Source of the DNA: Sphingomonadales bacterium
GTDB taxonomy: Bacteria; Bacteroidota; Bacteroidia; NS11-12g; UBA955
Length of the DNA stretch: 40,375 nt
Direction of reading: 5' to 3'
NCBI GenBank assembly: GCA_016872175.1
Contig: VHBA01000018.1
Coordinates: 1-40,375, forward strand
This document shows positions 10,056-14,916 of the stretch, piece after piece (the stretch's first letter is position 1; each line of letters starts with the position of its first letter). A program made the translations under genes and the position numbers. Under the pieces are notes generated by a model. That model worked only from the letters and a program-made list of their open reading frames with translations. It was not told the origin of the DNA and made no database searches.

Positions 10056-12548
10056 TTGAACAGATTTAAGTCATATCTCAGGAAACTTCTGTCGGCATTC
10101 CTTTTTTTATGGATGTCTGTTTCCACTGCTACCCACATTGTGGGAGGGGAAATGACCTATACCTACCTGGGAAACAATAGCTATAAAATCCGACTTGATC
10201 TTTACATAGACTGTCTGAATGGGAATTCAGGCGCTATTTCCAGCGATGCCACAGCATGGTTTGGCGTGTGGGATGGCAGTACCCGAAGAATGATTAGCGG
10301 TTATCCTACAGAAGTTTCCCGTACCGGCCCCACAAGAATTCAAAAAACCAATTACAACTGTATTTCCATTGCCCCCAACGCCTGTGTAGATCATTACTGG
10401 TATGAAAAAACCCTCACGCTGGCACCAAGAACCGGCGGATATATTATCTCTTTCCAGCGATGCTGCCGTAACAATACTATTTCCAATCTATTCAGGCCGG
10501 ATTTAACCGGTGCCAACTACTGGACAGCCATACCCGATCCGCGAACTACACCCAACTTGAAAGAAAATAACAGTGCTGTTTTTAAGGAACTTCCGCCCAA
10601 TTTTCTTTGCACCAATACACCCCTGAATTTTGATCACAGTGCCAAAGATCCTGATGGAGATAGCCTTTCGTATGACTTGTTTTGGCCATATACCGGCGGT
10701 ACCAGCACACAGCCAAGGCCTAGTACCAGTACCCAATTGGAAAGTCCGCCGTTTTCACAGATAACCTGGGGTTCTGGCTATTCAGCCAATGTGCCCATCG
10801 ATGGCAATCCCTTGCTGTCTATAGATTCAAAAACCGGTAAGATAACCCTGGTTCCCACTGTCGTAGGACAGTTTGTAATCGGAATAAGGGTAAAGGAATA
10901 CCGAAAAGGCAAGCAGATTTCGGAAACCATGCGGGATTATCAGTTCAATGTACAGTCTTGCGTGATTGATGTTGTGGCGTCGTATTTTGTACCAACCGTG
11001 GTCTGTGGGTATACATATCAGTTTCGCAACCAAAGCAAAGGCGGAACCCGCTATCACTGGGATTTTGGCGTCCCGGGCATAAGTACGGATTCATCCAATT
11101 TGTATCAGCCAACTTACACATTTCCTTATGCAGGCAAATTCAAGGTGAGGCTGATTGCCTGGAAAAATAGTTGCTCGGATACATTCGAAGCAGAACTGGA
11201 TGTGCAAAAACCCGAAATACCCAAGTTGCCTAAAGACACCATCATCTGTGATGGAGCCTCGCTCACCATTTCCTCGGATATTGTGGGAGATGCCTATCGC
11301 TGGAGCAATGGTCAGACCGTAGCTTCCGTTACCATCAATCAGGCGGGACTTTACTGGCTCGAGTTGACCAAAAACACCTGCAAATGGCGCGATAGTATTG
11401 TGCTTTCCGTCGATAAAACCAAGGTGCAGATTACAGGCGATACACTGTATTGCAGCGATGAGCAGTTTACGCGGACTCTACGGGCAACATCCGGATTAAA
11501 ATCCTACAAATGGAGCACAGGGGAAACAACCTCCGCTATCACCGTAAATCAGTCGGGTTCTTACATTGTGACCGGCACTACTGTCAATGGCTGCGTGTCT
11601 GTTGATACTGCATACATCAATCGATTTTCGCCGGTATTTGTTTCCATCAGGGACACCATTGTGTGCCCTGGAAATCCTGTGAGGTTTGACAACCAGAATC
11701 CAACAGCCACAGTCACCCGCTGGAGCAATGGAGAAACGGGAACTTCCACGACCATTGCGGCACCCGGAACCTATATTGTAAAGGTTACACGAGGACTTTG
11801 CAGCACCTGGGATACATTCACGCTAAGCAATTATCCGGCAACCTTGTTTATGGGACCTGATTTGCGTTTCTGCGAACGTATAGATACTTTGCTAAACGCC
11901 CCCCGAAATGATTTTCAAGCTGTAAGCTGGAACAATGAAATTGCAAGCAGTTCATACAGGCTTCAGAATCCGGGTAAGGTAATTATTAAAGTGATCAATA
12001 GGTTTGGCTGTCCCGAAGCCGATTCTATCAATGTAAAGCTATATCCCAACCCCCGCGTAAATCTTGGCAGTGATACCCTCGTTTGTTTGTCGGTTCATCC
12101 TGTTCTTGACGCCGGTGGAGGGATGATATGGTATCGCTGGCAGAACGGAACCACGGATCGCACCTATAAAGCCATAGACCCCGGCACCTACTGGGTGAAG
12201 GTGAAAGATGCCAATGGTTGTTTTGGAACAGACACCGTAACTATCAATAAGCGTGGTGATTTGTATCCGTCTACTTTATTTATGCCCAATGCTTTCACTC
12301 CGGATGGCAATGGTATCAATGATTTTTATCCCATGAATAAATTCCCGAAAGTGGGAACATTATACAATGTGAAGCTCTTTAACCGTTGGGGAGAAAAGTT
12401 AGTGGAAATGGAGTCACCGGATGTTAACTGGGATGGCAATATCAATGGTGTTCCTGCACCGGAAGGAGCCTATGTTTACCTGGCAACCTGGATTGGTTGC
12501 GACAATGAGCGCCGCACCATCAGAGGAAGTTTTCACTTGTTGAGGTAG
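10056..12548 (+). CDS. Large T9SS-secreted surface protein with PKD and five Ig-like repeats
   Basis: Predicted surface protein of 830 residues. A signal peptide (about residues 1-25) is followed by an N-terminal domain starting THIVGGEMTYTYLGNNSYKI, with FQRCCRN and DPDGDSLSYDL motifs. This module recurs in gliding-motility-associated proteins of the phylum. A PKD-like domain (about 300-372) and five tandem Ig-like modules from about residue 382 come next, each with the pattern (D)T..C...W.NG.T...I...G.Y.V. The last 85 residues are the type B T9SS sorting domain (PNAFTPDGNGINDF, NRWGEKLVEM, final IRGSFHLLR). The start is TTG 10056, chosen because it gives a full signal peptide and follows a promoter. 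The 3' end overlaps the convergent Nudix gene by 16 bp. Confidence 0.87.
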   Translation: MNRFKSYLRKLLSAFLFLWMSVSTATHIVGGEMTYTYLGNNSYKIRLDLYIDCLNGNSGAISSDATAWFGVWDGSTRRMISGYPTEVSRTGPTRIQKTNYNCISIAPNACVDHYWYEKTLTLAPRTGGYIISFQRCCRNNTISNLFRPDLTGANYWTAIPDPRTTPNLKENNSAVFKELPPNFLCTNTPLNFDHSAKDPDGDSLSYDLFWPYTGGTSTQPRPSTSTQLESPPFSQITWGSGYSANVPIDGNPLLSIDSKTGKITLVPTVVGQFVIGIRVKEYRKGKQISETMRDYQFNVQSCVIDVVASYFVPTVVCGYTYQFRNQSKGGTRYHWDFGVPGISTDSSNLYQPTYTFPYAGKFKVRLIAWKNSCSDTFEAELDVQKPEIPKLPKDTIICDGASLTISSDIVGDAYRWSNGQTVASVTINQAGLYWLELTKNTCKWRDSIVLSVDKTKVQITGDTLYCSDEQFTRTLRATSGLKSYKWSTGETTSAITVNQSGSYIVTGTTVNGCVSVDTAYINRFSPVFVSIRDTIVCPGNPVRFDNQNPTATVTRWSNGETGTSTTIAAPGTYIVKVTRGLCSTWDTFTLSNYPATLFMGPDLRFCERIDTLLNAPRNDFQAVSWNNEIASSSYRLQNPGKVIIKVINRFGCPEADSINVKLYPNPRVNLGSDTLVCLSVHPVLDAGGGMIWYRWQNGTTDRTYKAIDPGTYWVKVKDANGCFGTDTVTINKRGDLYPSTLFMPNAFTPDGNGINDFYPMNKFPKVGTLYNVKLFNRWGEKLVEMESPDVNWDGNINGVPAPEGAYVYLATWIGCDNERRTIRGSFHLLR

Positions 12549-12979
12549 GCTTCCCGCAGCCTGGAAAATACCAGCCTGTCGATTGGGAAGGTAAAATCCT
12601 CAACCTGCAGTTCATTTAATGGCTCCCATCTAAATTCTACCAGATATTCTTTATTCCATCGTTTCTCAACGGATTTAAATAAAATTTCATCCGAAAGCAA
12701 AGAAACATTGTAGTAGAAAGAAATAATCTGCTGCGCAGGATTGAATGCGCTGGGTTGGTAAAATTCATTTACGTAGAATAGATTTTCAACAGCTATATCA
12801 GCGCCCATTTCCTCTTTCCATTCCCGAATCAGACAATCAGTCAAACCTTCACCATGTTCAAGACCTCCACCCGGAAACTTGGTGAATGCATGGTCTCCGC
12901 CCAGTTCGGTAGAAATGAGCAACTTGTCATTTTTAATGGCTATGCCATATACACGGAGGTTAAATGCACCAACATTCAC
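12533..12979 (-). CDS. Nudix hydrolase
   Basis: Cytosolic hydrolase of nucleoside-diphosphate-linked compounds, 148 residues. The Nudix box is complete at residues 38-60: G, five residues, E44, seven residues, then REWKEEMGA (R52, E53, E56, E57, G59). The substrate cannot be predicted. The start is GTG 12979; a -7-like TAATTTCG lies 4 nt before it (12984-12991), the same arrangement as priA and dapB. The 3' end runs 16 bp into the end of the T9SS protein gene on the other strand. It is the only intact gene near the decayed GxxExxY gene, which lies just upstream on the same strand. Confidence 0.9.
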   Translation of the reverse strand: MNVGAFNLRVYGIAIKNDKLLISTELGGDHAFTKFPGGGLEHGEGLTDCLIREWKEEMGADIAVENLFYVNEFYQPSAFNPAQQIISFYYNVSLLSDEILFKSVEKRWNKEYLVEFRWEPLNELQVEDFTFPIDRLVFSRLREAYLNK

Positions 12980-13002: not shown

Positions 13003-13433
13003 CTAATATCTGGCATATTCAGGCAGGAAGCAGCTTTCATCAGGCAACAACCTGTGGTTCGCTACCCTTCGAATTCCAGTTTTTAGTAAAGGTGAATTGA
13101 AATTGATGACGGGTCCTAAGCGGTAATTGCCCAATTTCATGTTGCGAAGCATTTTATATACGTGGTAGTCTGTAATTTGATCGCAGGTTTTCAGTTCTAT
13201 GGTCAATTTGTCATCCAGCACAAGGTCTATGCTGCATCCATCATCAATGTGCAGATTTTTATAAGTTACCTACAAAGGCTTCATGGATGTGGCTGAAATA
13301 CCGTTTTACCCTAATTCATATAAAAGGCATTCGCGGTAAGCACTCTCTTTCAGGCCGGGCACAGGGCTTTGTGGATTTCAATGGCAAGTCCAATGACTGT
13401 ATGCGCAAGGTGGTTTTCTGGTATGTCAATCAT
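13003..13433 (-). pseudogene. Decayed GxxExxY (PD-(D/E)XK_3-like) protein gene
   Basis: Reading the minus strand from ATG 13433 gives MIDIPENHLAHTVIGLAIEI then HKALCPA and a stop. After a one-base shift near 13350 the family motif continues as GLKESAYRECLLYELG, i.e. the GxxExxY signature. It is followed by an in-frame TAA at 13306-13308, then NGISATSMKPL, a TAG at 13270-13272, then VTYKNLHIDDGCSIDLVLDD. The remaining intact part (13003-13221) contains LTIELKTCDQI, LGPVINFNSPLLKTGIRRVAN and ends at TAG 13003. One frameshift plus two stops make this a relic rather than a sequencing slip. The family has a nuclease-like fold (Asp and ELK still visible) of unknown role. This relic fills most of the only gap above 300 bp in the window (12980-13581). 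Confidence 0.8.
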
Positions 13434-13483
13434 ATTGGTAGGGTTTGATGTTACGAAGCTATTGCCACATTAAAGGCGAAAAA

Positions 13484-13497
13484 ATGACAATTGTCAT
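13484..13497. promoter_or_regulatory. Perfect 14-bp palindrome upstream of pyrC
   Basis: ATGACAATTGTCAT is its own reverse complement. It lies between the pseudogene start and pyrC, 98 bp before the pyrC ATG, and could be an operator. No regulator is known for it. Confidence 0.3.
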
Positions 13498-13560
13498 GTG
13501 TGATGAAGGGCATAGTCATGCCTATTGAAAACAATAATAGCCACCGCCCTGATTAGCCCT

Positions 13561-13581: not shown

Positions 13582-14916
13582 ATGAACAAATCACTGATTC
13601 GCAATGCCCGTGTTATAAATGAGGGCGAAATATACCATGCCGATGTGCAAATTGAGGCGCAGTTCATTACCCGTGTGGAAAGAAACGGCATTTCATCAGG
13701 GCAAGGAAAAGAGATTGATGCTGCAGGTAGTTTTCTGATACCCGGTGTGATTGACGATCAGGTTCATTTTCGCGAACCCGGACTAACCCACAAGGCAGAA
13801 ATTTATACGGAGAGCCGCGCTGCGCTTGCCGGTGGCGTAACATCATTTATGGAAATGCCCAATGTGATTCCCAAAACCACCACCATTGAAAGGCTGGAGG
13901 AGAAAATGGAAATAGGCGCTGCCCGCAGTGCTGTTAACTATTCATTTTTCATGGGTACTACCAATGATAATCTTGAAGAACTGAAAAAGGTGAATCCCCT
14001 CAATACCTGTGGTGTTAAGATTTTTATGGGTAGCAGCACCGGTGATATGTTGGTGGATGATGAAGCTGTGCTGGATAAAATATTTTCCCAAATTCCGATT
14101 CTGATAGCTACACACTGTGAAAATGAAACCCGGGTAAAAGAAAGATTGGCTGAGTGGGTTCAAAAGTATGGTGAGGATATTCCAGCAGCAGAGCATGCCC
14201 GTATCCGCGACGAGGAGGCTTGTTTACTAAGTTCTTCTTTTGCAAGGGATATGGCGATGAAACATAATACCCGCCTGCACATTCTTCACATTACCACTGA
14301 AGAAGAACTGAAGCTTTTCCGCAACGATATTCCCCTGGCCCAGAAGCGAATAACCTCCGAAGTATGTGCACACCACCTGCATTTTACAGCAGATGACTAT
14401 GCTACGCTGGGAAATTTTATCAAATGCAACCCGGCTATTAAGGATGCAAGGCACAAACAGGCACTTTGGCAGGCTTTGCTTGATGATAGGCTGGATATTA
14501 TTGCCACAGACCATGCTCCCCACACGTTGCAGGAGAAACAATCGCCTTATACCCAAAGTCCTTCAGGGCTTCCGCTGGTTCAACATAGCCTTCAGCTAAT
14601 GCTGAACTATGTTTCACAAGGTAAAATATCCTATGAAAAGGTGATTGATAAGATGTGCCATAAGCCTGCCGAGTGTTTTCAAATAGATCGCCGTGGCTAC
14701 ATAAGAGAAGGTTACTATGCTGATTTGGTGTTGGTGAAACCCAATACACATTGCAAGGTAAGTGACCAGAACATCCTGTATAAATGCGGTTGGAGCCCTC
14801 TAAACGGAATGGAATTTAACCACAGCATTGAAAAAGTTTGGGTGAATGGCACTTTGGGATGGGATGGAAGGCTGACAGAGCATTACAATCCCATGCGACT
14901 GGCTTTCAACCGCTAA
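13582..14916 (+). CDS. pyrC: Dihydroorotase (amidohydrolase family)
   Basis: Cyclises carbamoyl aspartate to dihydroorotate in pyrimidine synthesis; 444 residues. The metal-site residues of the long amidohydrolase-type enzyme can be traced: H62 in VIDDQVHFREPG, K146 in CGVKIFMGSS (the lysine that is carbamylated in this family), H178 in ATHCE, H233 and/or H236 in RLHILHITT, and D310 in IIATDHAPH. The first histidine of the usual HxH pair is Gln (Q60). I recall the same DDQVH form in other Bacteroidota enzymes, so it need not mean loss of activity. The 3' end overlaps the convergent DUF58 gene by 4 bp. No other pyr gene is nearby. Confidence 0.92.
   Translation: MNKSLIRNARVINEGEIYHADVQIEAQFITRVERNGISSGQGKEIDAAGSFLIPGVIDDQVHFREPGLTHKAEIYTESRAALAGGVTSFMEMPNVIPKTTTIERLEEKMEIGAARSAVNYSFFMGTTNDNLEELKKVNPLNTCGVKIFMGSSTGDMLVDDEAVLDKIFSQIPILIATHCENETRVKERLAEWVQKYGEDIPAAEHARIRDEEACLLSSSFARDMAMKHNTRLHILHITTEEELKLFRNDIPLAQKRITSEVCAHHLHFTADDYATLGNFIKCNPAIKDARHKQALWQALLDDRLDIIATDHAPHTLQEKQSPYTQSPSGLPLVQHSLQLMLNYVSQGKISYEKVIDKMCHKPAECFQIDRRGYIREGYYADLVLVKPNTHCKVSDQNILYKCGWSPLNGMEFNHSIEKVWVNGTLGWDGRLTEHYNPMRLAFNR

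Follow-up and report, generated by a model that had tools for sequence, protein, structure and literature searches.

At positions 13003 to 13433 the DNA stretch analysed here (the window, 40,375 nucleotides in all) holds a truly broken gene of the GxxExxY family that has undergone ordinary gene decay. We consider it highly probable that this is the remnant of a resident gene that became dispensable, probably recently, and that the intact form of this gene encodes a non-catalytic, nuclease-shaped protein. Neither a broken gene nor an inactive nuclease fold is new in kind, and the relatives are more informative than the relic itself: in them, a resident branch of a widespread family has kept a fixed locus and a strong constraint while the cutting residues went. 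The literature searched, which covered few of the subscription papers, yielded no description of an inactive, vertically inherited GxxExxY branch.

The broken gene and its surroundings

A preliminary description of this DNA had reported a GxxExxY pseudogene with one frameshift and two stop codons. Its coordinates, its lesions and its pseudogene status were all seen again in the minus-strand frames and in a DNA alignment of five genomes (Table 1). The ATG at 13433 starts MIDIPENHLAHTVIGLAIEIHKAL in the first minus-strand frame. A second frame, from about 13359, continues with PGLKESAYRECLLYELG, a stop, NGISATSMKPL, a second stop and VTYKNLHIDDG, then further on with INFNSPLLKTGIRR and EYARY, and ends at the stop at 13003-13005. 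In the alignment, the relic shows one gap of a single base, and of its 143 codons the 43rd and the 55th are stops. The upstream leader, which we take to be promoter-like, persists together with the start codon, and the frameshift and the two stops would end translation early.

Table 1. Positions of the relic, its lesions and the adjoining genes in the window.
Feature	Position	Strand	Remarks
PKD/CHU_C type IX secretion (T9SS) protein	10056..12548	plus	neighbour of all 22 resident copies
NUDIX protein	12533..12979	minus	open; downstream neighbour
GxxExxY pseudogene, start codon to final stop	13003..13433	minus	431 bases, 143 codons in two frames
C-terminal remnant, 72-aa GTG ORF	13003..13221	minus	holds L108P and N119T
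In-frame TAG, codon 55	13270..13272	minus	Ser in G002, G005, G006 and G004
In-frame TAA, codon 43	13306..13308	minus	Gln in G002, G005 and G004; Arg in G006
One-base frameshift in the GPG loop	13357..13361	minus	exact base ambiguous in the alignment
N-terminal segment MIDIPENHLAHTVIGLAIEIHKAL	13362..13433	minus	own frame, ahead of the frameshift
Upstream leader with CAATAGCTTCG	13434..13500	minus	common to G002, G005 and G006; one mismatch in G004
Dihydroorotase-like amidohydrolase	13582..14916	plus	divergent neighbour; Pfam Amidohydro_1

The assignment to the GxxExxY family was upheld. The relic matched PF13366 with 81.7 bits at a cut-off of 22 (E 9.2e-23), and a profile of the orthologues matched both of its pieces, 13024-13359 at E 1.4e-43 and 13344-13430 at E 7.8e-8, which is far above chance. 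Two checks had been proposed earlier, whether related genomes hold an intact copy here and whether the same genome has further copies. Relatives do have such an intact copy. When the own assembly (2.26 Mb, 98.7% complete, 91 contigs) was searched with PF13366, no match besides the relic was found.

Further genes of the block near the relic are DUF58, thioredoxin and DUF2400, and in relatives the corresponding position of this block is occupied by an intact GxxExxY gene. The name dihydroorotase for the gene on the divergent side is our assumption. The PKD/CHU_C protein of the window is one of 34 matches in its own genome, itself counted. Upstream of the relic lies a perfect 12-base palindrome, TGACAATTGTCA, at 13485-13496 adjoining a T-run, of which imperfect versions occur in G005 and others.

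The intact orthologues, their active site and their fold

Across the loci, 116 unique matching ORFs were collected. The 22 that scored at least 172 bits with the orthologue profile were taken as the residents; the next score was 159. Six of the 116 ORFs, shorter than 120 amino acids, were dropped before the residues were counted. The residents were compared with 88 other GxxExxY proteins, a non-random sample gathered by similarity, by two C-terminal peptide patterns and from Pfam and profile hits in relatives. The first resident matched TIGR04256 with 115.9 bits at a cut-off of 35, and all 14 resident proteins tested matched this model at E 0.01 or better.

In the numbering of the G005 protein, D70 was present in all 22 residents and in all 88 others. 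E80 was found in 13 residents and the ExK lysine K82 in none, compared to 88/88 of the others in both cases. The glutamate that gives GxxExxY its E, E30, was kept by 4/22 residents and 87/88 others, and also by the relic. Q94 and Y98, which we scored as part of a RecB-like motif on our own assumption, were absent from every resident and present in 86 and 87 of the 88 others, respectively. The six site residues occurred together in 84/88 others, among them 12 of the 13 that belong to the residents' own family-level group, and in 0/22 residents. The resident branch therefore appears, as judged from these residues, to have dismantled its PD-(D/E)XK site, with the cutting residues gone long ago, while the other GxxExxY proteins presumably cut nucleic acid. 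Outside the site, the residues invariant in the residents include E6, A10, H11, G15, H21, Y33, K59, N111, F112, K118, N119, R122, R123 and N126. The residents resemble the other members of the family in the blocks around H21, GPG, Y33, INF and KNGIRR. They differ from them in having no ExK lysine, glutamine or tyrosine, in mostly having no glutamate in the naming motif, and in occupying one fixed genomic site.

The string LTIELK, listed earlier as a surviving family motif, is indeed present in the relic, but its lysine is not a family heritage. It arose by mutation on the branch of the relic, since the three closest intact orthologues, those of G002, G005 and G006, have a glutamate there and none of the 22 residents has a lysine. 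The IELK of the relic serves as a caution: the decay of a pseudogene can produce a motif that looks canonical.

We regard it as unlikely that the intact residents are still nucleases whose catalytic residues have moved. D70 is invariant, a lysine stands at position 30 in 13/22 residents, and K59, K118, R122 and R123 are found in all of them, which is what such an activity could draw on. However, E80 is lost in 9/22 residents, K82, Q94 and Y98 are lost in 22/22, and the former site varies from genus to genus, unlike a catalytic site.

The G005 protein was modelled with AlphaFold2 (pLDDT 86, pTM 0.77). With this model, Foldseek gave no match at E 0.001 or better, the best being 3.4e-3, and VIA-align gave a best Z of 9.2 (4ic1), followed by 8.0; among the matches listed, the rest had a Z below 8, a range that the tool calls middling. 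A sequence search of the solved structures gave no match at E 1. The top structural matches are, on our assumption, PD-(D/E)XK nucleases: Cas4 (4r5q), LHK-Exo, lambda exonuclease and SSO0001 (4ic1). These weak structural matches suggest that the intact orthologues keep a PD-(D/E)XK fold, as predicted by the model, with most of the nuclease site gone. To Cas4, SSO0001 and lambda exonuclease the residents are alike in predicted fold, by matches that are statistically weak, and differ from them in that the catalytic residues are not retained. The nuclease-fold domains of the Wolbachia CidB type (7fiw, 7fiv), presumably inactive, were also among the structural matches. They would share with the residents, at the level of predicted structure, a nuclease fold lacking the cutting residues; the residents differ from them as free-standing proteins of about 140 amino acids.

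The number of PF13366 matches per genome in the family-level group ranged from 0 to 6, residents included. Among the 58 relatives, 11 of the 14 resident carriers had no second PF13366 match, which makes it unlikely that the protein depends on an active member of its own family as an obligate partner. From the residues and the model we infer a stand-alone, non-catalytic binding protein. Rather than cut, it would most likely serve as a small scaffold that binds nucleic acid or protein, and it would act without an active paralogue. Relatives with and without the site, which in one case (G005) occur in the same genome, offer a natural test of GxxExxY roles beyond catalysis.

Selection on the relic and on the intact copies

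Substitutions were counted on each branch after polarisation against two outgroups. The codons of the frameshift were left out, and the numbers are simple counts rather than the result of a likelihood model. The ratio of nonsynonymous to synonymous changes was 13:21 for the relic of the window and 44:22 for the relic of G004, compared to 0:22 and 4:29 for the intact genes of G002 and G005. The window relic differed from G002 with a Fisher p of 7e-4 and from G005 with a p of 0.023. Amino-acid change is thus raised in the relic relative to its intact orthologues. Two of the changes on the relic branch, L108P and N119T, hit positions that are invariant in 22/22 residents.

Taken over its whole branch since the split from G002, the window relic was below neutral (binomial p 1e-6), as expected of a recent loss, and the G004 relic was close to neutral (p 0.054). 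A ratio of 13:21 is not that of a neutral branch, so that constraint either acted over a good share of this time or persists in part of the gene. On the simplest reading, the gene was under constraint along most of the branch leading to the window and its breakage is recent, more so than that in G004; a continued use of part of the relic is less likely. The recency of the loss, probable as it is, was deduced from these substitution counts. Counts with three outgroups (11:5, p 0.38, for the window relic and 36:9 for that of G004) had made both relics look neutral; for the window relic, full neutrality was rejected, as the recount with two outgroups did not uphold it. The three-outgroup count is too low in synonymous change because the synonymous sites are saturated. 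In the three-outgroup scheme without the frameshift codons, the ratio of the window relic, 10:5, was still higher than the 85:140 of six neighbouring genes pooled (p 0.032).

A partial use could take the form of a C-terminal ORF of 72 amino acids that is still translated and useful, or of a gene that is read by recoding. Both are very improbable. The GTG-started ORF is 85% identical to two intact orthologues, and the ratio of 13:21 over the whole branch is not that of a neutral sequence. Yet E82K, L108P, N119T and R135C, all of them changes of the relic, fall within this ORF, two at positions invariant in 22/22 residents, and the frameshift and the two stops are lesions separate from one another.

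Still less probable is an intact gene in which the lesions are errors of sequencing or assembly. In its favour, the window comes from an assembly of 91 contigs, and the sequence is still partly constrained over the whole branch. However, three separate lesions lie within 431 bases, L108P and N119T stand at invariant positions, and amino-acid change is raised. In addition, the seven neighbouring genes of the window that were tested are open, and in each of them synonymous changes outnumber nonsynonymous ones (with synonymous given first, for instance 12:8 in the NUDIX gene, 17:6 in DUF58 and 82:39 in the dihydroorotase-like gene).

Inheritance in place and repeated loss

The T9SS gene was present in the fetched loci of all 22 full-length residents, and a match to the dihydroorotase-like protein in 19 of them, in G007 to the first 92 residues only. 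The three loci with no such match were those of G002, where the gene is absent at the site, and of G028 and G088, whose contigs measure 5.2 and 7.9 kb. The NUDIX gene was found in 8/22 resident loci. The other hits were tested for these neighbours when they scored at least 112 bits (76 hits, leaving out 16 lower ones, and with some loci extending about 1.5 kb to each side); one of them (L159) had any tested neighbour, and this was DUF58 alone.

A GxxExxY tree was built by a quick method on 117 columns from the 22 residents, the relic and 50 of the 88 other proteins, 38 being dropped. With the six active-site columns removed, the residents and the relic were together on one side of a branch with an SH-aLRT of 100. 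The GxxExxY tree was then compared with a tree of four neighbouring genes in 20 genomes, leaving out G007 and G017 for their long branches and G028 for too few columns. The two trees agreed in 4762 of 4845 quartets, and the Mantel r was 0.77, a value that 0 of 5000 permutations matched. Because the T9SS neighbour is found in 22/22 loci and the dihydroorotase-like gene in 19/22, and because the gene tree is like that of the neighbours, we conclude that the intact gene is a vertically inherited resident, inherited in place.

The preliminary description had suspected a former mobile or accessory locus that was inserted and then decayed, and the patchy distribution of PF13366 copies in the family-level group would suit this, but other genera of the group have intact orthologues at this very site, in 22/22 cases and as a single clade whose tree tracks that of the neighbours, so that a mobile origin was rejected as highly improbable.

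The named records with a resident copy are metagenome-assembled genomes titled Flavobacteriales or Bacteroidetes, apart from one titled Sphingobacteriia (L098) and one titled Chitinophaga pinensis (L158). When 108 genomes from across the order were searched, of which 70 belong to the family-level group, no match at E 1e-40 was obtained outside this group.

The gene has been lost repeatedly, as seen from clean gaps, one footprint and the differing lesions of a sister genome. The block was present with no GxxExxY match in 11 of the 15 genomes of genus g6, the count covering the 11 in which the site was visible since it was not seen in the other four, and in all three genomes of genus g10. At these empty sites, 4 to 296 bases separate the end of the T9SS gene from the start of the dihydroorotase-like gene. 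In G019 (genus g14) the NUDIX gene is kept and the GxxExxY gene is absent. In G089 a gap of 170 bases between the dihydroorotase-like and the T9SS gene retains a piece resembling the upstream leader and the first part of the gene. Though weak (E 0.015), the match has the correct place and orientation, and the gap is likely to be the footprint of a deletion. The site of G003 was not seen, since the contig stops at the start of the dihydroorotase-like gene and the T9SS piece is cut on the side of the site.

With the relics scored as absent, the presence and absence of the gene required five changes on the tree of the neighbours. These correspond either to five losses from one ancestor or to one gain after the g10 split and four losses. 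The genome of the window and G004 are sisters (SH-aLRT 97) and the gene is broken in both. In the G004 relic, codon 35 is a stop and three insertions are present. The two relics have T48A in common, and no disabling lesion shared by them was found in the DNA alignment. Either the two losses were independent, or the gene was first silenced by a single unseen event, such as a regulatory change, and then decayed separately in each genome.

The resident gene would thus have become dispensable in the lineage of the window, probably recently, and its loss would be tolerated here as in several other lineages. For the longer history we lean towards the following course, with some reserve. A nuclease of the patchy GxxExxY family may have been captured once, at a fixed site beside the T9SS and dihydroorotase-like genes, in one family-level group of Bacteroidota whose members are mostly titled Flavobacteriales. 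It would have lost its catalytic site and come under strong purifying selection for a new role that involves no cutting, and this role would later have been given up by several lineages, including the present one.

Some loci showed further peculiarities. In G002 (L033, 4879-5071), where the GxxExxY gene is intact beside the missing dihydroorotase-like gene, the best match to the latter elsewhere in the genome is only 49% identical. In G004 (L034, 4542-4676), the NUDIX gene beside the relic also looks cut, as residues 1-45 alone match, and the T9SS neighbour sits on a different contig. In G088, a second, short N-terminal GxxExxY fragment is found at positions 405-503 of contig C128 (E 2.2e-5), and the full copy lies on another contig.
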